Below are positions 30,675 to 64,000 of a stretch of DNA of 64,000 nt, one piece after another. The notes under the pieces were generated by a model that was not told the origin of the DNA, did not search any database, and saw nothing but the letters and a program-made list of their open reading frames with translations. The stretch comes from an uncultured Sulfurovum sp. GTDB taxonomy: Bacteria; Campylobacterota; Campylobacteria; Campylobacterales; Sulfurovaceae. Location of the stretch: contig CAJXJN010000002.1 in the NCBI GenBank assembly GCA_913055205.1, positions 32,028 through 96,027 on the forward strand, given 5' to 3'. Position numbers and translations under genes: made by a program. Numbering within the stretch: position 1 is the stretch's first letter; every line of letters begins with the position of its first letter.

Positions 30675-30752
30675 TCCTATCACTATCACTATCTTGCTAT
30701 AATACCCCCATGCCAAATAGTCAACTATCCACTATCCACTATCCACTATCAC
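30600..30752. repeat. CCACTAT/CACTATC tandem hexa-/heptamer arrays (three clusters: 30600-30625, 30665-30694, 30722-30752)
   Basis: e.g. ccactatccactatccactatcac. Confidence 0.85.
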
Positions 30753-53326: not shown

Positions 53327-54541
53327 CTAATCACTCCCAAACAAATCACGAGTATAAACTTTTTCTTCTACATCTTTGAGATCTTCTGAAAGTCTATTTG
53401 CTACAATAACATCTGATATCTTTTTAAACTCATCCAAGTCTTTGATTACTCTTGAGTGAAAAAACTCTTCTTCATATAGTACAGGTTCATATACAACAAC
53501 TTCAATCCCTTTAGCTTTAAGACGTTTCATAACCCCCTGAATAGCTGAACTTCTAAAGTTGTCTGATCCACTTTTCATAACAAGTCTATAAATTCCCACT
53601 ACTTGGGAATTTAGTTTTGAGTTTTTAGTTTTTAGTTTTGAGTTATTTTGATCGTTGAGCATTTTGACAACACTATCTGCAATGAAGTCTTTACGGGTAG
53701 TGTTCGCTTCAACAATCGCCTGGATCATCTTGCTTGGAACATCCTTGTAGTTTGCCAGAAGTTGCTTTGTATCTTTTGGCAAACAGTAGCCACCATAGCC
53801 AAACGAAGGATTATTGTAGTGTGTACCAATGCGAGGGTCTAAGCCTACACCATCGATGATCTCTTTGGTGTTGAGTCCATGAGTCTGTGCATAAGTGTCT
53901 AATTCGTTAAAATAAGCAACACGCATTGCTAAGTAAGTGTTAGCAAAGAGTTTAATGGCTTCTGCCTCTGTTGAATCGGTAAACAGTACAGAAATATCTT
54001 CTTTGATAGCACCTTCCTTAAGAAGGTTGGCAAAAATTTCTGCACGTTCACTCTTTTCACCTACGATGATGCGTGAAGGATGCAAGTTGTCATAAAGAGC
54101 AGAACCTTCCCGTAAAAACTCTGGAGAGAAGATGATATTCTCCGTGTTGAACTCTTGTTTAACTCGTTCTACATAACCTACAGGAATAGTAGACTTTATG
54201 ACCATAACAGCATCAGGATTGTATTCCAACACATCTGCAATGACATATTCTATACTCTTAGTGTTAAAATAGTTAGTCTCTGGATCATAGTCAGTCGGTG
54301 TCGCGATGATAACAAAGTCTGCATCTCTATACGCTTCCGCTTTATCTAAAGTCGCTTTGAAATTTAGATCAGTACGCAAAAGATACTCTTCTATCTCTTT
54401 ATCTTCAATAGGTGACTTCTTAGCATTGATCATTTCAACCTTCTCAGGGATGATATCAAGTGCTACAACTTCATTGTTTTGTGCTAAAAGAATACCGTTG
54501 GATAGACCAACGTAACCTGTACCTGCTATTGCTATTTTCAT
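53327..54541 (-). CDS. ugd: UDP-glucose 6-dehydrogenase carrying an in-frame repeat-encoded insertion
   Basis: [36 protein letters not shown]; insertion [15 protein letters not shown] before [17 protein letters not shown]. Confidence 0.95.
53605..53650. repeat. GTTTTGA/GTTTTTA heptamer array in ugd
   Basis: gttttga gttttta gttttta gttttga gttattt. Confidence 0.9.
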
Positions 54542-54584: not shown

Positions 54585-55835
54585 TTAACTATTTCCCTTG
54601 TACCAATCATACATACGCATTATACCTTCTTCAAGATCTATCTTATGATGCCAACCTAAAGAATGAAGCTTAGAAACATCCGTAAGCTTCTTCATCGTAC
54701 CGTCCGGTTTGTCGGTGTTGAAGTAAAGCTCGCCCTTAAAACAAATAAGATCTTTTATCATGTAGGCTAGCTCCTTTATACTAACATCTACTCCAGTTCC
54801 AATATTTATATGGGTGTTTCGGATCTCATTTGTTAATGTTGAATGCTTAATGTTGAATTTTGAATTATCTTTTTCACTATTGATGACATCAGAGAAGTCT
54901 CTGTTTTCCATGAGGAATACGCAGGCATCGGCCATATCGTGGCTCCATAAAAATTCGCGGCGTGGCTTACCGGAACCCCAAATTTCTATTGAAATTTGGG
55001 GTTGTGATAGTGGATTGTGATAGTGGATAGCAATTCCATACTTTTCAAGTACTCCAATGATCTCTTCTTTCGAAGATGATCCGTCGATGCCTTCGATGGG
55101 GAGTTTGTTAAGATCTTTTCTGATGGCATCCCAGTTGTTCTCTTCTAATACTTTTCCCAGGTGGATCTTTCTGATGAGTGCCGGAAGTACATGTGATTTT
55201 TCCAGGTCAAAGTTGTCATTGGGACCGTAGAGGTTTGTTGGCATCACTGAGATGTAGTTGGTGCCGTACTGCAGGTTGTAACTTTCACACATCTTGATAC
55301 CTGCGATTTTTGCTATGGCATAAGGTTCATTGGTGTATTCGAGTGTATCTGTAAGCAGGCAGTCCTCTGGCATAGGTTGTGGCGCATTCTTTGGGTAAAT
55401 ACAGGTAGATCCCAGGAACATCAGTTTTTTGACATTGTTCTTATAGCTTTGGTGGATAATGTTGTTCTGTATCTGCAAGTTCTCATAGATGAAGTCCGCA
55501 CGGTAGGTGTTGTTCGCCACAATACCACCTACTTTTGCTGCAGCTAGAAATACGAACTCTGGAAGCTCTGATTTGAAAAACTCATCTGTAGCTGTTGCAT
55601 CTAATAAGTCTAGTTTAACATATTTGACGGGGTTCGTATTTAATGTTGAATGTTTAATGTTTAATTTTGAATTGTTTGGGATGCGCTTATGGTAGTTTGC
55701 TACTATGTTTGTGTAGCCTTTTTCCAACAAGTTTTGAATAATAGCAGAGCCTACAAGACCTGTACCACCCGCTACAAAAATCTTTGAAGATTTTTGTAAT
55801 GGTGAATGTTTAATGTTTAATTTTGAATTATCCAT
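54585..55835 (-). CDS. fcl: GDP-L-fucose synthase with repeat-encoded insertions
   Basis: KIFVAGGTGLVGSAIIQNLLEKGYTNIV; FLGSTCIYPKNAPQPMPED; peptides NSKLNIKHSPL, NSKLNIKHSTL, NSKFNIKHSTL. Confidence 0.95.
   Translation of the reverse strand: MDNSKLNIKHSPLQKSSKIFVAGGTGLVGSAIIQNLLEKGYTNIVANYHKRIPNNSKLNIKHSTLNTNPVKYVKLDLLDATATDEFFKSELPEFVFLAAAKVGGIVANNTYRADFIYENLQIQNNIIHQSYKNNVKKLMFLGSTCIYPKNAPQPMPEDCLLTDTLEYTNEPYAIAKIAGIKMCESYNLQYGTNYISVMPTNLYGPNDNFDLEKSHVLPALIRKIHLGKVLEENNWDAIRKDLNKLPIEGIDGSSSKEEIIGVLEKYGIAIHYHNPLSQPQISIEIWGSGKPRREFLWSHDMADACVFLMENRDFSDVINSEKDNSKFNIKHSTLTNEIRNTHINIGTGVDVSIKELAYMIKDLICFKGELYFNTDKPDGTMKKLTDVSKLHSLGWHHKIDLEEGIMRMYDWYKGNS
54831..54867. repeat. heptamer array in fcl
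   Basis: gttaatg ttgaatg cttaatg ttgaatt ttgaatt. Confidence 0.9.
54976..55030. repeat. perfect 11-bp-arm hairpin followed by GTGATAG-type array inside fcl
   Basis: ccccaaatttc-tatt-gaaatttgggg then ttgtgatagtggattgtgatagtggatag. Confidence 0.9.
55636..55676. repeat. heptamer array in fcl
   Basis: gtattta atgttga atgttta atgttta attttga att. Confidence 0.9.
55803..55831. repeat. heptamer array encoding the Fcl N-terminal extension; left flank of four-helix-bundle cassette B
   Basis: tgaatgtttaatgtttaattttgaattat. Confidence 0.9.
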
Positions 55836-55836
55836 A

Positions 55837-56211
55837 TTAATTATTACCTTGTGAACTTTTTACTATTGAAGTTAACAACTTCACTATTTCATCTATTTCG
55901 TTTACCAATGTTCGAACATGCACATCATGTTTATTAAGATAATCCGTTTTTATCAATAGATTGATCCAGTATTTGCTTTCTCTGGCTTCTTTGCTCGCTA
56001 TTGCCATTTTAGCTATGAAGTCAGCTTTACTTTGACCTGCTTGTGCTTCATTAATATTAGCACCAATGGAAGTACCGCTTCTTAGCAGTTGCTTAGATAA
56101 TATATATTCTTTCTTTTCATCACACAGATACTTATAGAGTTTCACAACCCTAATAGCAAATTCAAGCGATTTATCTAAAATAACATTATCTTTCACTTCC
56201 CCTCCATTCAA
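55837..56211 (-). CDS. four-helix-bundle protein (S23/IVP, Avd-like), cassette B; start may be GTG at 56196
   Basis: KSLEFAIRVVKLYKYLCDEKKEYILSKQLLRSGTSIGANINEAQAGQSKADFIAKMAIASKEARESKYWINLL. Confidence 0.92.
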   Translation of the reverse strand: MNGGEVKDNVILDKSLEFAIRVVKLYKYLCDEKKEYILSKQLLRSGTSIGANINEAQAGQSKADFIAKMAIASKEARESKYWINLLIKTDYLNKHDVHVRTLVNEIDEIVKLLTSIVKSSQGNN

Positions 56212-56236
56212 AATTTAAAATTTAAAATTCAACATT
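56206..56236. repeat. heptamer array, right flank of cassette B (inverted relative to left flank)
   Basis: attcaaaatttaaaatttaaaattcaacatt. Confidence 0.9.
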
Positions 56237-56245
56237 GATCATGCA

Positions 56246-57397
56246 CTACTCGAAGTAATTCATGATGGTGTAGCCACCTTCTTTGAGATACTGGTCTTTT
56301 GTCATAAGATGAAGGTCAGACTGCATCATGTCGTTCACAAGTTCTTCAAGCTGATACTCTCTGCTCCAGCCAAGTTTGGTCTCTGCTTTGGTCGGGTCAC
56401 CTAAAAGAAGATCAACCTCTGTAGGTCTGAAGTATTTGGGATCAACAGCAACCACTTCTTTTCCAATTAGATCAGTGATAGTGGAGAGTGATAGTGACAG
56501 GGAATGAATACGGTCTTCATCGATGGATTTGACAATACCTACTTCATCAACACCTTCCCCTTTGAATTCAAGCTCGATCCCTGCATAAGCAAATGCCATT
56601 CTTACAAAATCACGTACTGTGGTTGTCTGTCCTGTAGCAATGACCCAGTCTTCGGGTTCCTCTGCCTGCAGGATGAGCCACATCATTTTAACATAGTCTT
56701 TTGCATGGCCCCAGTCGCGTTTTGCATTGAGGTTACCCAGATAGAGCTTGTCCTGAAGTCCCAAAGCGATCTTGGAAGCTGCACGCGTGATCTTTCTGGT
56801 TACAAAGGTTTCACCTCTTACCGGTGATTCGTGGTTGAACAAAATACCATTACAGGCGAACATGCCGTAGGCTTCTCTATAGTTAATCGTGATCCAATAG
56901 GCATACATCTTTGCTACAGCATAAGGAGAACGCGGATAGAACGGTGTTGTTTCAGATTGAGGTGTCTCCTGTACTTTCCCGTAGAGCTCAGAGGTGGAAG
57001 CCTGATAAATACGTGTCTTTTTTGTAAGCCCCAGAAGTTTAACTGCTTCAAGGATACGAAGTGTTCCTGTACCGTCAGCATTGGCAACATACTCCGGTGT
57101 TTCAAAAGAGACAGCAACATGGCTCATGGCTGCCAGATTGTAGATCTCATCCGGTTGCACCTCCTGGATAATACGGGTCAGGTTCATAGAGTCTGTCATG
57201 TCTCCATAATGGAGGATGAAATTCCTGTTCTCTACATGCGGATCCTGGTAGAGATGGTCGATACGGTCCGTGTTAAAAAGAGATGCACGACGTTTAATAC
57301 CGTGAACGATGTAGCCTTTCTTTAATAAAAATTCAGCCAAATAACTTCCGTCCTGGCCGGTTATCCCAGTTATCAGTGCTACTTTTTGCTTTGCCAT
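56246..57397 (-). CDS. gmd: GDP-mannose 4,6-dehydratase
   Basis: [44 protein letters not shown]. Confidence 0.97.
56473..56500. repeat. GTGATAG-type array in gmd
   Basis: cagtgatagtggagagtgatagtgacag, encodes [10 protein letters not shown]. Confidence 0.7.
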
Positions 57398-57417: not shown

Positions 57418-57444
57418 GTTACGTGCTACGGATTACGTGTTACG
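57418..57444. repeat. left inverted repeat (GTGTTAC heptamers) of four-helix-bundle cassette A
   Basis: gttacgtgctacggattacgtgttacg. Confidence 0.9.
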
Positions 57445-57788
57445 ATTTTTTCTCTTATTGATTTCTGTAGATTTGACAACATAGAGAGTATATGATCTGA
57501 CTCTTCTATCCATCTTTTTCCTTCTTGTTTATCTATATAATCTATATCCATTCCAATGTATGTTTGTGTAGCGAATTCAGCTGCTGAACCTTTTGCAATA
57601 TCAAGAAATCGAGCCTGTTCTTTAAAAGATTCTTTTTCCATTCCTTCAGCAATATTACTGGGGATAGAAAGCCCTGCACGGGTGATTTGATCTTTAAACC
57701 CAAAGTCTTTACACTCTTTAAAAGCTTTATAGACATTAGCAGAGAGTCTAGCACTCTTCTTCCACACATCCAATTTTTCACATTTCAT
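57426..57788 (-). CDS. four-helix-bundle protein (S23/IVP, Avd-like), cassette A
   Basis: MKCEKLDVWKKSARLSANVYKAFKECKDFGFKDQITRAGLSIPSNIAEGMEKESFKEQARFLDIAKGSAAE. Confidence 0.95.
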   Translation of the reverse strand: MKCEKLDVWKKSARLSANVYKAFKECKDFGFKDQITRAGLSIPSNIAEGMEKESFKEQARFLDIAKGSAAEFATQTYIGMDIDYIDKQEGKRWIEESDHILSMLSNLQKSIREKIVTRNP

Positions 57789-57800
57789 TTAATACCTTTT

Positions 57801-57827
57801 CGTAACACATAACACGTAGCACTTAAC
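57801..57827. repeat. right inverted repeat of cassette A
   Basis: cgtaacacataacacgtagcacttaac; reverse complement matches 57418-57444 at 23 of 27 positions. Confidence 0.9.
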
Positions 57828-57883
57828 TCTACTCTCTCTGAAAATCATCAGAGAATCTGACGATATCATCCTCCCCCTCTATC

Positions 57884-57911
57884 ACTATCACACGTCACTA
57901 TCACTATTTTG
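57884..57911. repeat. CACTATC-type array overlapping the NUDIX gene 3' end
   Basis: tatcactatcacacgtcactatcactat. Confidence 0.85.
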
Positions 57912-58391: not shown

Positions 58392-59901
58392 CCTCTACAC
58401 GAATGATGTCATCTTCCCCGACATATTCACCCACCTGTGCTTCGATCATCACAAGAGGGATCTTCCCTATATTTTCAAGGCGGTGGACTTCACCCATAGA
58501 GATATAGGTTGATTCGTTTGCTCTTACAGGATACTCATCTGCTCCTCTTGTGACCAATGCTGTCCCACTGACCACAACCCAGTGCTCAGAACGGTGATGG
58601 TGCTTTTGTAAAGAGAGACGTTTACCGGGTTTAACAACGATACGCTTTACTTTATAGCCCTCTGACTCATCCAGTATGGTATAGGTACCCCATGGTCTGT
58701 GTGCCGTAACATGAATGTTTGGCAGTTCAGATTTTTTCTCTTTGAGTCTTTTGACTACCTCTTTAATCTTTTGACTGCTCCCTTTTTTAGAAACCAAAAG
58801 TGCATCTGCCGTATCAATGATAATAAGGTCATCTACGTCTATCATAGCAACTTGTTTCTCAGAGAGGATCAAGTTGTTATTCGAATTTTGAATGATTAAT
58901 GCTGAATTTTGAATTGAAGTTGTAGCATTGCCATTGTTATCATGAGGTAATTCTTCGTAAAGTGCATCGAAGCTTCCAAGATCGCTCCAGTCAATATCTG
59001 AGGGAACGACCTTTACCTTGTCGCTTTTTTCCATGACGGCATAGTCTATGGATTCTTCCGGAATCTCTGCCATCGATGAGTGATCGATTCGGAGCAATTC
59101 CGGAGTGTTGAGTGTTGAGTTTTGTCCTCGTTCCTGTGGGATTGTCGCTTCGCTCAGACGGGTTTTGAGTTTTTCTATCGCTTTTTTTGAAGCTTCATAG
59201 ATCTCAGGTGCATATTTTTCTAATTCTTCCAAAAACACGCCTGCTTTGAAGCAGAACATTCCGGAGTTCCAGAAGAATTTAGTGATAGTGGATTGTGATA
59301 GTGATTGATCCTCTTGGTTCTTATGAATATATTGCTGTGCCGTTTGAAGATCAGGCTTTTCATGAAAATGAATAACATCCATCCCACAATCACTATCACT
59401 CTCAACTATCACTGAAGCAATCGCTTCAATATATCCAAAGCCTGTTTCAGCAAATTGTGGAGTGATGCCAAAAGTCACAAGATTACACTCTTCTGCAAGA
59501 TTCTTTGCTTTTTCTACGGCTTCCAGATAGGCTTCTTCATCTTTAATGAGATGATCGGAAGGAGTGACAAGAACGATCTCTTCCGGATCGAGGGCAAGAC
59601 AGGCAAGAGCAATAGCAGGTGCAGTATTTCTGCCTACAGGCTCTAAAAGATATTGTGTTGGGTGTTGGGTGTTGGGTGTTGAGTTATGCGTAAGCTCTTC
59701 GAGCTGATCTACTGCTAAAAAATACTGTTCTGCATTTGAGACAATAAACTGCGAATCACAGGATTTTTGGTTTCTTGCTACAGTCTTTTGAAAAAGAGAC
59801 TCACCCTCAAAGAGTTTTACGAACTGCTTCGGCATAAGCGTACGGCTGAGCGGCCATAAACGCGTACCTGAGCCTCCGCATAATATAATATTCGTCATCA
59901 A
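58372..59901 (-). CDS. manC: mannose-1-phosphate guanylyltransferase/mannose-6-phosphate isomerase with several repeat-encoded insertions
   Basis: NIILCGGSGTRLWPLSRTLMPKQFVKLF; FWNSGMFCFKAGVFLEE; RPWGTYTILDESEGYKVKRIVVKPGKRLSLQKHHHRSEHW. Confidence 0.96.
   Translation of the reverse strand: MMTNIILCGGSGTRLWPLSRTLMPKQFVKLFEGESLFQKTVARNQKSCDSQFIVSNAEQYFLAVDQLEELTHNSTPNTQHPTQYLLEPVGRNTAPAIALACLALDPEEIVLVTPSDHLIKDEEAYLEAVEKAKNLAEECNLVTFGITPQFAETGFGYIEAIASVIVESDSDCGMDVIHFHEKPDLQTAQQYIHKNQEDQSLSQSTITKFFWNSGMFCFKAGVFLEELEKYAPEIYEASKKAIEKLKTRLSEATIPQERGQNSTLNTPELLRIDHSSMAEIPEESIDYAVMEKSDKVKVVPSDIDWSDLGSFDALYEELPHDNNGNATTSIQNSALIIQNSNNNLILSEKQVAMIDVDDLIIIDTADALLVSKKGSSQKIKEVVKRLKEKKSELPNIHVTAHRPWGTYTILDESEGYKVKRIVVKPGKRLSLQKHHHRSEHWVVVSGTALVTRGADEYPVRANESTYISMGEVHRLENIGKIPLVMIEAQVGEYVGEDDIIRVEDDFERN
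58881..58917. repeat. heptamer array in manC
   Basis: cgaattt tgaatga ttaatgc tgaattt tgaattg; encodes SIQNSALIIQNSN. Confidence 0.88.
59104..59154. repeat. GTGTTGA array plus 32-nt dispersed core in manC
   Basis: agtgttgagtgttgagtttt + tgtcctcgttcctgtgggattgtcgcttcgct. Confidence 0.9.
59281..59308. repeat. GTGATAG-type array in manC
   Basis: agtgatagtggattgtgatagtgattga. Confidence 0.85.
59387..59413. repeat. inverted CACTATC-type array in manC
   Basis: caatcactatcactctcaactatcact. Confidence 0.85.
59654..59688. repeat. GTGTTGG heptamer array in manC
   Basis: tgtgttgggtgttgggtgttgggtgttgagttatg. Confidence 0.92.
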
Positions 59902-60114: not shown

Positions 60115-61467
60115 CTACAATCTCCACGTAGGAGACTCAACGATCCCTTTAATATCTATGAGTACCGGCTCACCTGTACTGATACCTTCATATGCACTGC
60201 GTTCCAACGCTTTAAACTCCTTATGCCCTACAGCGACAATGACTGCATCGTACTTTTTATCTGCTTTAAAAGGATCCGTTATGAACGTGAAGTTCTTCTG
60301 ATCTACATCTTTCTCATCAATCCATGGTTCATAAGCATCAACGTTACAACCATAGTCAGCCAGTTCATCGATGATGTCGAACACTTTGGAGTTACGAATG
60401 TCCGGACAGTCCTCTTTGAACGTCAAACCCATCACAAGTACATTAGAATCTTTGATCTTCTTGTCATGTGAGATCATCTCTTTGATAGCACGTTCGGCTA
60501 TGTACTTACTCATACCATTGTTGATCTGACGAGCACCTAAAATAAGGTTTGGTTTGTAGCCAAGCTCCTGTGCTTTGTGTGTAAGATAGTAAGGGTCCAC
60601 GCCTATGCAGTGGCCGCCTACCAGGCCGGGAGTCAGCTTGATGAAGTTCCATTTTGTTGCGGCAGCATCTATGACCTCCGTAGTATCTATGCCCATCGTG
60701 TCAAAAATAAGAGCAAGTTCATTGATGAGTGCGATGTTAACGTCACGTTGAGTATTTTCAATAACCTTGGAAGCCTCTGCTACTTTGATAGAAGAAGCCA
60801 GATGCGTACCGGCAGTGATGATACTCGCATAAAGATCATCCACTATAGTAGCAATTTCGGGAGTTGAACCGGCCGTAACTTTTAAGATCTTAGTTACTGT
60901 ATGCTCTTTGTCACCCGGGTTGATACGCTCAGGAGAATATCCGCAGAAGAAACCTTTGGTTTCTTCCCGTGTTGAGTGTTGAGTGTTGAGTGTTGAATTA
61001 TTGTCTGAAGAGATATATTTGAGGCCGGAGACTTTTTCAAGGACAGGAACACAGACCTCTTCAGTCACACCAGGATAGACCGTAGATTCGTAGATGACAA
61101 TGTCACCCTCTTTCAGCACTTTTCCCACCGACTCAGAAGATTTAATAAGCGGAGTAAGGTCAGGACGGTTGGAACTGTCTATAGGTGTTGGAACCGTAAC
61201 AATGTAGATATTGCAATCGGCGATATCTTCTAAGTTGCAAGAGAACTTCATGCCGTTATCGATAGCCTCTTTCATCTGAGCTTCGTCCAGTTCAAGAGTA
61301 CGATCATAAGCATTATTCAGTTCATCTATACGCCACTGCGCAATGTCAAAACCTACCACCTCATACTTCTCACTGAAAGCATGCGCCAGAGGCAGACCTA
61401 CGTAACCGAGTCCGATGATCGCTAATTTTGGATTTTGAATTTTGAATTTTGAATTAGTTTTACTCAT
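60115..61467 (-). CDS. UDP-N-acetylhexosamine 6-dehydrogenase (TviB/WbpO-like) with repeat-encoded insertion
   Basis: LAIIGLGYVGLPLAHAFSEKYEVVGFDI; GLVGGHCIGVDPYYLTHKAQELGY. Confidence 0.94.
   Translation of the reverse strand: MSKTNSKFKIQNPKLAIIGLGYVGLPLAHAFSEKYEVVGFDIAQWRIDELNNAYDRTLELDEAQMKEAIDNGMKFSCNLEDIADCNIYIVTVPTPIDSSNRPDLTPLIKSSESVGKVLKEGDIVIYESTVYPGVTEEVCVPVLEKVSGLKYISSDNNSTLNTQHSTREETKGFFCGYSPERINPGDKEHTVTKILKVTAGSTPEIATIVDDLYASIITAGTHLASSIKVAEASKVIENTQRDVNIALINELALIFDTMGIDTTEVIDAAATKWNFIKLTPGLVGGHCIGVDPYYLTHKAQELGYKPNLILGARQINNGMSKYIAERAIKEMISHDKKIKDSNVLVMGLTFKEDCPDIRNSKVFDIIDELADYGCNVDAYEPWIDEKDVDQKNFTFITDPFKADKKYDAVIVAVGHKEFKALERSAYEGISTGEPVLIDIKGIVESPTWRL
60969..61003. repeat. 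GTGTTGA heptamer array in the dehydrogenase gene
   Basis: gtgttga gtgttga gtgttga gtgttga attattg. Confidence 0.93.
61422..61456. repeat. GAATTTT heptamer array encoding the dehydrogenase N-terminus; left flank of remnant C
   Basis: gaattttgaattttgaatt; encodes NSKFKIQNPK. Confidence 0.9.
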
Positions 61468-61470
61468 TTT

Positions 61471-61569
61471 TTATTTCTGTCCTGCGTTGTTTTCATGATA
61501 CTTAGATAAATTGACGATCCGAACAGCAAAATCAAATGATTTACCTACGGTATGATTTTCTGTTTTCAT
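61471..61569 (-). pseudogene. internally deleted four-helix-bundle gene remnant (cassette C)
   Basis: MKTENHTVGKSFDFAVRIVNLSKYHENNAGQK* aligns with N-terminus of 55837-56211 (VKDNVILDKSLEFAIRVVKLYKYLCDEKKEY). Confidence 0.75.
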
Positions 61570-61579
61570 CAATCCCCCC

Positions 61580-61606
61580 AATTTAAAATTTAAAATTAAT
61601 TTAATG
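61580..61606. repeat. heptamer array, right flank of remnant C
   Basis: aatttaaaatttaaaattaatttaatg; shares aatttaaaatttaaaatt with 56206-56236. Confidence 0.9.
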
Positions 61607-61704
61607 ATTATATCGAAAAGAGTTAAGAGCAGCTTTGCAACAATGCTATGTACTATGTGGGTAAACTTTGACATAGTCCTTTGGGACTTGTCAAGTCTCC
61701 TGTG

Positions 61705-62604
61705 TTAGTTTTGGCTCAATTCATAAAAGTGGTTGGTTGCTTTGACGAAGCCGTCTACTGAACCGCAGTCAAAACGTGTACCTTTAAATTTATAGGCAAT
61801 GACTCTGCCCTGTTTGGCTTGTTCGAGAAGGGCATCGGTGATCTGGATCTCTCCGCCTTTTCCCGGTTTGGTCTCTCTGAGGATATCGAAGATATCCGGT
61901 GTAAGGATGTAGCGTCCGATGATCGCCATGTTGGTAGGGGCATCTTTGGGATCCGGTTTTTCCACCATGTCGGTTACCCGATAGGTATCATCCGTGCCAT
62001 CTACCAGATTTCCTGCAATGATACCGTATTTGTCAGTCTGATCCATAGGGACCTCTTCGATGGCTACCACTGAACATTGGTACTTTTCATAGACTTCGAT
62101 CATTTGGGATAAGATACCTTTGGCATCCGTCATTGGTAATTGTCCCCGTTCCTGAGGGATTGTCGCTTTGCTTGGATGGTTATTGGTTATTGGTAGGTTG
62201 TTGGTGCAGAGGTCATCTGCCAATACAACCGCAAAAGGTTCATTTCCTATGAGTGTTTCACCGGTGAGGATAGCATGCCCCAATCCCTTCATCTCTATTT
62301 GTCTGGTGTAAGAGAAGGTACATTGGCTGATGAGAGAACGAATCTCATCAAGAAGAGACTCCTTGGAAGCTCCCTTGATCTGATGTTCAAGCTCATAGGA
62401 GATATCGAAATGATCTTCTATGGCACGTTTACCACGACCCGTAACGATCGCCATAGTGTGGATACCCGCCTCCAGAGCTTCCTCCACGCCATACTGAATA
62501 AGCGGTTTGGTCAAGATAGGCAGCATCTCTTTGGGCGTCGCTTTGGTTGCAGGAAGGAAACGTGTCCCGTAGCCGGCAGCGGGGAATAAACATTTGTTGA
62601 TCAT
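61705..62604 (-). CDS. galU: UTP--glucose-1-phosphate uridylyltransferase with repeat-encoded insertion
   Basis: KCLFPAAGYGTRFLPATKATPKEMLPI; insertion NNLPITNNHPSKATIPQERGQLPMTD after VVLADDLCT. Confidence 0.96.
   Translation of the reverse strand: MINKCLFPAAGYGTRFLPATKATPKEMLPILTKPLIQYGVEEALEAGIHTMAIVTGRGKRAIEDHFDISYELEHQIKGASKESLLDEIRSLISQCTFSYTRQIEMKGLGHAILTGETLIGNEPFAVVLADDLCTNNLPITNNHPSKATIPQERGQLPMTDAKGILSQMIEVYEKYQCSVVAIEEVPMDQTDKYGIIAGNLVDGTDDTYRVTDMVEKPDPKDAPTNMAIIGRYILTPDIFDILRETKPGKGGEIQITDALLEQAKQGRVIAYKFKGTRFDCGSVDGFVKATNHFYELSQN
62132..62213. repeat. 32-nt dispersed core plus GGTTATT-type heptamers in galU
   Basis: tgtccccgttcctgagggattgtcgctttgct (62141-62172), then ggttattggttattggtaggttgttggt. 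Confidence 0.88.
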
Positions 62605-63782: not shown

Positions 63783-63857
63783 ATTTTTTCCTCTCTATAT
63801 ATATATTGATTGCATTATATCGAATAAGGAGTTAGAGTTCAGAGTTGCTTGGCAACA

Positions 63858-64000
63858 GTGTTGAGCGTTGAGCGTTGAGTGTTGAGCATTGAGTAATGTT
63901 GAATATTGAATATTGAATGTTAAATGTTAAATGTTAAATGTTATATGTTATATGTTATATGTTATATGTTATATGTTATATGTTATATGTTATATGTTAT
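63858..64000. repeat. long heptanucleotide tandem array with stepwise unit drift, continuing past window edge
   Basis: gtgttga gcgttga gcgttga gtgttga gcattga gtaatgt tgaatat tgaatat tgaatgt (taaatgt)x3 (tatatgt)x8 tat. Confidence 0.97.

Follow-up and report, generated by a model that had tools for sequence, protein, structure and literature searches.

Cassette A of an uncultured Sulfurovum sp. looks like a member of a widespread mobile element made of a four-helix-bundle gene between inverted heptamer arrays

Cassette A lies in the window, the 64-kb stretch of DNA analysed here, and carries a single gene, which encodes a four-helix-bundle (4HB) protein. In our main reading, to which we give a probability of about 0.7, it is an autonomous copy of a small mobile element in which two inverted arrays of a 7-bp unit enclose one 4HB gene. 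Matched arms, a heptamer for each gene lineage, presence and absence of cassettes, cross-phylum transfer and dispersed copies without 4HB are all shown by sequence comparison. Mobility in evolution is well supported; no movement was observed.

Cassette A and the heptamer arrays of the window

The sequence-only reading had matched positions 57418–57444 with the reverse complement of 57801–57827 at 23 of 27 positions. The count was reproduced, and an inverted-repeat search recovered 28 nt at 86% identity, while 20,000 random pairs of comparable spacing reached at most 17/27. An exhaustive scan of the window for inverted 27-mers (threshold at least 22/27, spacing 250–500 nt) returned only two sites, cassette A and a pair flanking a second 4HB gene (about 55798–55829 and 56205–56236). 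Although the match stands, the ends are not a unique terminal repeat. They are degenerate tandem arrays of the 7-bp unit CGTAACA, inverted around the 4HB gene. The right arm, on the 5′ side of the gene (57800–57827), is the inverted array CGTAACA CATAACA CGTAGCA CTTAAC. The left arm, on the 3′ side (57418–57445), is C-type on the sense strand and encodes the last residues of the protein (..VTRNP*), as had been noticed.

The 4HB gene (57426–57788, minus strand, 120 aa) is the sole ORF of the cassette. It belongs to PF05635 (E-value 7e-33 in a Pfam search; also TIGR02436 and NF008912), and its protein matches 4HB/IVP models only. Cassette A encodes no transposase, nuclease or reverse transcriptase. 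PADLOC and PHROGs searches with the protein gave no match, phage records gave none either, and no Rfam family was matched around the cassette. Its site is between gmd and NUDIX/manC, not within a 23S rRNA gene. From comparison with three other loci (L009, L011 and L020), the fragment between cassette A and the next array (57828–57878) resembles the 3′ end of manC and is a putative trace of a rearrangement of the gmd/manC junction.

Cassette B lies between fcl and gmd. Its gene (55837–56211, minus strand) encodes the second 4HB protein, of 124 aa. The left arm (55797–55829), a heptamer array of the TTTAATG/TTTGAAT type, extends into the 5′ end of fcl, and the right arm (56205–56236) is an inverted ATTTAAA/ATTCAAC array. 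Solo arrays are found in frame within genes at 53610–53646 (gene 53327–54541), 55639–55673 (fcl; heptamer family of cassette B), 56472–56500 (a loop of gmd; CACTATC family) and 60967–60999 (gene 60115–61467). Within manC, in-frame solo arrays occupy 58883–58915 (a heptamer like that of cassette B), 59102–59125 (AACACTC family) and 59653–59688 (site 1; CAACACC). Two CACTATC arrays of the same gene, at 59387–59416 (site 2) and 59278–59307 (site 3), are inverted partners separated by about 79 nt of native manC. Further solo arrays lie at 30720–30752 and 57875–57906 (both CACTATC family, the second adjoining the NUDIX gene) and at 63856–63887. A TTTTGAA array (61424–61457) is the G-type partner of an ATTTAAA array (61579–61600). 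The latter adjoins a possible remnant of a third 4HB gene (61471–61674, minus strand), for which no Pfam match was found and whose residues ..SFDFAVRIVNLSKY.. resemble, by eye, a 4HB N-terminus.

Twelve arrays of the window have period 7, against 0–3 for each of the periods 5, 6 and 8–10. Ordinary local slippage was ruled out, as identical units are dispersed and also occur in matched inverted pairs. Arrays within genes are mostly C-type on the sense strand, an excess that is expected because G-type units (TGA, TAG) give in-frame stops. The manC sites 2 and 3 appear to be filled or empty together (co-presence judged by eye from the alignment), and in several species (L083, L086) they hold inverted arrays of one family with about 75–79 nt of native gene between them. 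A long ATGTTAT array (63894–64000) ends with the window, which is the end of contig C2; contigs C3, C13 and C31 of the same genome also end in long heptamer arrays (L004, L153, L163). Arrays therefore interrupt the assembly, and their true number is higher than counted. Another dispersed repeat, of 29 nt (CCTCGTTCCTGTGGGATTGTCGCTTCGCT), encodes ATIPQERGQ in frame in manC (59126–59154), where it adjoins a heptamer array, and in galU (62144–62172), and has another copy near the start of gmd in L008. It is a separate small repeat family.

Heptamer arms and the 4HB protein across genomes

Five PF05635 genes were counted in the genome that contains the window (G000; 1.66 Mb, 47 contigs, 86% complete). 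Every one is flanked by inverted heptamer arrays, and no two share a unit (CGTAACA in cassette A, ATTTAAA/ATTCAAC in cassette B, and CACTATC, CTGCTAC and ACTCATT at L001, L004 and L005, respectively). Among 70 distinct 4HB genes drawn from the genus, named genomes and plasmids, 84% had inverted-repeat or heptad flanks on both sides, compared with 6% of 400 control ORFs from the same loci; about 16% were without clear arrays. Period 7 was present in both flanks of 64% of the 4HB genes, periods 6 and 8 in 3%, and periods 5 and 9 in none. Beyond Campylobacterota, at least seven further phyla have the arrangement, which covers Cyanobacteriota, Pseudomonadota (Azospirillum, Caedibacter), Spirochaetota, Bacteroidota, Bacillota, Chloroflexota and a Victivallaceae contig. 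This generality rests on plasmid records and a scan of named genomes. Arrays were not seen around L255, a Gemmatimonadota gene, or L239, a gene from Pseudanabaena.

The two arms of a cassette match each other: the match score was 17.2 for a cassette's own pair and 6.6 across cassettes, with a permutation maximum of 8.9. The more alike two 4HB proteins are, the more alike are their heptamers (Mantel rho 0.22, p≤0.001). Where consecutive arrays lie no more than 700 bp apart, they run G-type then C-type in 64 cases and the reverse in 19, and since this order is identical on both strands, it represents a fixed polarity of the array pair. In random samples of genus genomes, array density was 0.68 per 10 kb with at least two 4HB genes and 0.13 with none; phylogeny, MAG quality and local clustering all confound this contrast. 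Two arrays at contig ends, which may belong to one cassette, account for part of the match between dispersed arrays and resident cassettes. Directly outside arrays, small perfect hairpins were seen at L168, L172, L198, L199, L203 and L210; some hairpins next to arrays carry a ribosome-binding-like GGAG or AAGG in the loop, immediately 5′ of a start codon.

These figures bear on the possibility that the arrays came first. Heptamer arrays would then have spread alone, by slippage and template switching or by an unknown host process, and 4HB genes would be passengers between two arrays. Solo arrays are indeed common, and some inverted pairs have unlike arms. Moreover, manC orthologues carry in-frame arrays at common surface-loop sites with heptamers that differ between species, so that arrays can turn over without an enclosed 4HB gene. 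However, the two arms within a cassette agree with each other and vary in step with its protein, array polarity is fixed, the association with 4HB genes is strong and genomes without 4HB have few arrays. We consider this explanation unlikely, slightly less so than those discussed below.

The cassette A protein, modelled with AlphaFold2 from an alignment (pLDDT 93.9), matches the structures 2GSC and 2RLD, and its closest solved structure is XCC0516 of Xanthomonas. Against the DGR protein Avd, the model scored TM 0.74–0.82 to chains of 4DWL and 8UB7. Six residues are invariant (Q34, R37, S41, N45, E48 and E71) and include the published motif GxxRxxxSxxxNxxE (PMC3936711). They would be the obvious candidates for binding. 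Two sequence types can be distinguished, ..RAGLSIPSNIAEG.. in cassette A and ..RSGTSIGANINEA.. in cassette B, which are about 27% identical and both have heptamer arms. The predicted RNA fold of the cassette has a terminal stem (z −3.2). Forty-two cassettes are co-oriented with both neighbours and none is opposite to both; this bias is less marked in cyanobacterial plasmids, which include several antisense cassettes.

Movement through RNA has to be weighed here. The 4HB protein would assist, in the manner of Avd, a reverse transcriptase that is provided in trans and writes copies of the hairpin RNA into new sites. Homology between PF05635 proteins and DGR Avd (PMC10053308) agrees with the fold similarity, and both the RNA stem and the sense orientation relative to operons fit such a route. 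Nevertheless, no RVT_1 reverse transcriptase was matched in the incomplete genome G000, nor in two genomes rich in 4HB matches, G002 with eleven and the complete G016 with nine, and the antisense cassettes of cyanobacteria do not agree with it. We see only a slim chance that this is how the cassettes move.

Presence, absence and transfer of cassettes

Cassette A occurs at the gmd/manC junction of five genomes and is absent in many; in cassette-free relatives, gmd is directly followed by manC or NUDIX. The sequence-only reading had described a minimal mobile cassette at the gmd–NUDIX junction, to be abandoned if the unit were always present there with flanks diverging at the neutral rate. That was not the case: there are empty sites, and divergence is discordant, nucleotide identity to G022 being 88.6% for the cassette and 74.5% for the adjacent gmd. 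The description as a mobile cassette is thus supported by presence and absence at junctions, copies elsewhere and divergence discordant with the neighbours. As to the site, the cassette does lie at gmd–NUDIX in this genome, but comparison of relatives suggests gmd/manC as the ancestral position. A close relative of cassette A was found at a gmd/fcl junction (L066). The mraY/murD junction and the 3′ end of hemE are occupied by different cassettes, with different heptamers, in some genomes and empty in others. Inverted pairs without 4HB also exist (L176, L188), in two cases inside murD (L183 and L187). The gmd of L032 (G046) contains about 950 bp of extra in-frame sequence that matches LAGLIDADG_3 and, weakly, intein splicing, probably an intein in the GDP-mannose dehydratase.

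A Victivallaceae MAG (L082) has two cassette-A-like copies beside folB, with a GC content of 0.35 in the cassettes against 0.50 in their flanks. The Victivallaceae cassette is 89% identical to cassette A at the amino acid level, while the protein flanking it has no match above 37% identity in 150 Campylobacterota genomes. From this sequence comparison we conclude that one cassette has crossed between phyla. The second 4HB gene of that locus (L082 positions 1747–2031, upstream of folB) is degraded and has its own array at 1691–1720.

Exact reciprocal filled and empty sites were found in Nostoc plasmids (L228 versus L235 and L236). The empty site reads ..TTTAGGTTCTAGGTTATGC.. and the filled site ..TTTAGGTTCTA-[AATCAGGAG..4HB..CTTCTGGAT]-TCTAGTTATGC... 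A 270-bp nested hairpin of the AGTCAGG family without 4HB is present in L236 and missing from L228 and L235. A 4HB-less element of the same family, of about 170 bp, interrupts the 4HB gene of L242 and is present at 101 places in 43 plasmid records. In L243, the 4HB gene is internally deleted with both arms kept, and terminal inverted repeats are common to 4HB-bearing and 4HB-less copies of this Nostoc family. No further clean array indels were found in the 99% identical part of a 50-kb comparison of two Nostoc plasmids. Target-site duplication, which the sequence-only reading had thought worth looking for, does not appear as a general feature: flanking direct repeats averaged 4.22 nt in 36 cassettes and 4.08 nt in shuffled pairs, in a test for which array ends are hard to place, and a likely target repeat of 4–5 bp (TTCTA) was seen at one Nostoc site only. 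Many plasmid 4HB cassettes are located inside defence operons (L231, L233, L238, L247, L248, L249, L251, L252, L253 and L254), including cas6-cas4, cas10-cmr3, cas1-cas2, type I RM, DISARM/BREX and DUF1156-Swt1 HEPN. Such operons are abundant on plasmids, and no enrichment is implied.

A non-mobile operon gene, vertically inherited and with inverted arms that regulate or process the polycistronic mRNA, would explain the sense direction of cassettes inside operons and their recurrence at the same junctions in several species, but it is already disfavoured by the empty junctions of many relatives and is further contradicted by the occurrence of one family at several sites and in a second phylum, by multicopy 4HB-less forms and by the discordant divergence, so that we regard it as very improbable.

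A possible mechanism and its relation to known systems

If cassette A is an autonomous mobile element, it may act as follows. The element would be transcribed from the host operon, and pairing between the arms would fold the transcript into a long stem that holds the 4HB gene in its loop, the layout of 23S rRNA intervening sequences. By inference, the encoded protein, with its Avd-like ring-forming fold, may bind the stem of its cognate heptamer, either as RNA or as single-stranded DNA. Bound protein might then allow the element, together with 4HB-less relatives of the same heptamer, to be copied or moved to new sites, with cutting and joining probably left to host enzymes. The in-frame arrays in genes could be small derivatives tolerated in surface loops. 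More tentatively, at somewhat below even odds, these elements would constitute a class of their own, in which a non-catalytic 4HB ring protein is the sole gene product and recognises the array ends by a 7-nt code specific to its own element, movement relies on host enzymes or a hairpin intermediate, and heptamer repeats and 23S rRNA intervening sequences across bacteria have a common source.

The nearest known relatives of the cassettes are the 23S rRNA intervening sequences with an S23p ORF of Leptospira and Coxiella (PMC4990558). In Coxiella, a terminal stem of 28 bp encloses the S23p gene in its loop, with GACAGAT heptamers directly upstream of the ORF (PMC4990558). The cassettes share with the intervening sequences the protein family, its placement in a loop closed by a terminal inverted-repeat stem (about 26 bp here) and a size of about 0.4 kb. 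Unlike intervening sequences, the cassettes occur genome-wide in operons and genes and not in rRNA; heptamer arrays form both arms, with a unit that differs per gene lineage, and 4HB-less copies are dispersed.

Heptameric repeats have been described in Xanthomonas, with 183–186 GGGAATC arrays and 70–75 convergent pairs but no assigned mechanism (PMC4692102), and TAACTGA heptamers have been discussed without mechanism in Beggiatoaceae and others (PMC4679880). Like these and the cyanobacterial STRR, the arrays reported here are tandem 7-bp units, dispersed and degenerate, and the convergent GGGAATC pairs have the same polarity as ours. For the published repeats no associated gene or mechanism has been reported, whereas here a 4HB gene has matching inverted ends and is the probable autonomous partner of the heptamer repeats. 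We found no description of a general link between heptamer arrays and 4HB genes in the open-access literature; subscription papers and preprints were outside the scope of our search, and a prior description is not excluded.

As in MITEs and other non-autonomous elements, the 4HB-less copies are short, multicopy and inverted at their ends, and arise by internal deletion (L243, L244). They differ from MITEs in that the autonomous partner has no transposase, tandem arrays form the ends and target sites are not generally duplicated. The 4HB protein has the fold of DGR Avd, but no RVT_1 reverse transcriptase, as a DGR would have, was found in the 86% complete G000. Rickettsia palindromic elements are short repeats that are likewise inserted in frame inside protein genes; to our knowledge, they are not heptameric and have no associated gene.

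The same arrangement, with a different seven-letter word for each gene, recurs across many phyla, which is why cassette A looks like a member of a widespread mobile element. If this is true, PF05635 genes inside cas loci (PMC3936711) would be explained as insertions and not as parts of those systems. The matched pair of protein and heptamer in each lineage offers a ready-made specificity experiment. Three puzzles, namely the function of the S23p/four-helix-bundle proteins, the origin of heptamer repeats in Xanthomonas, cyanobacteria and Beggiatoaceae, and the way in which 23S rRNA intervening sequences entered rRNA, would merge into a single testable question.
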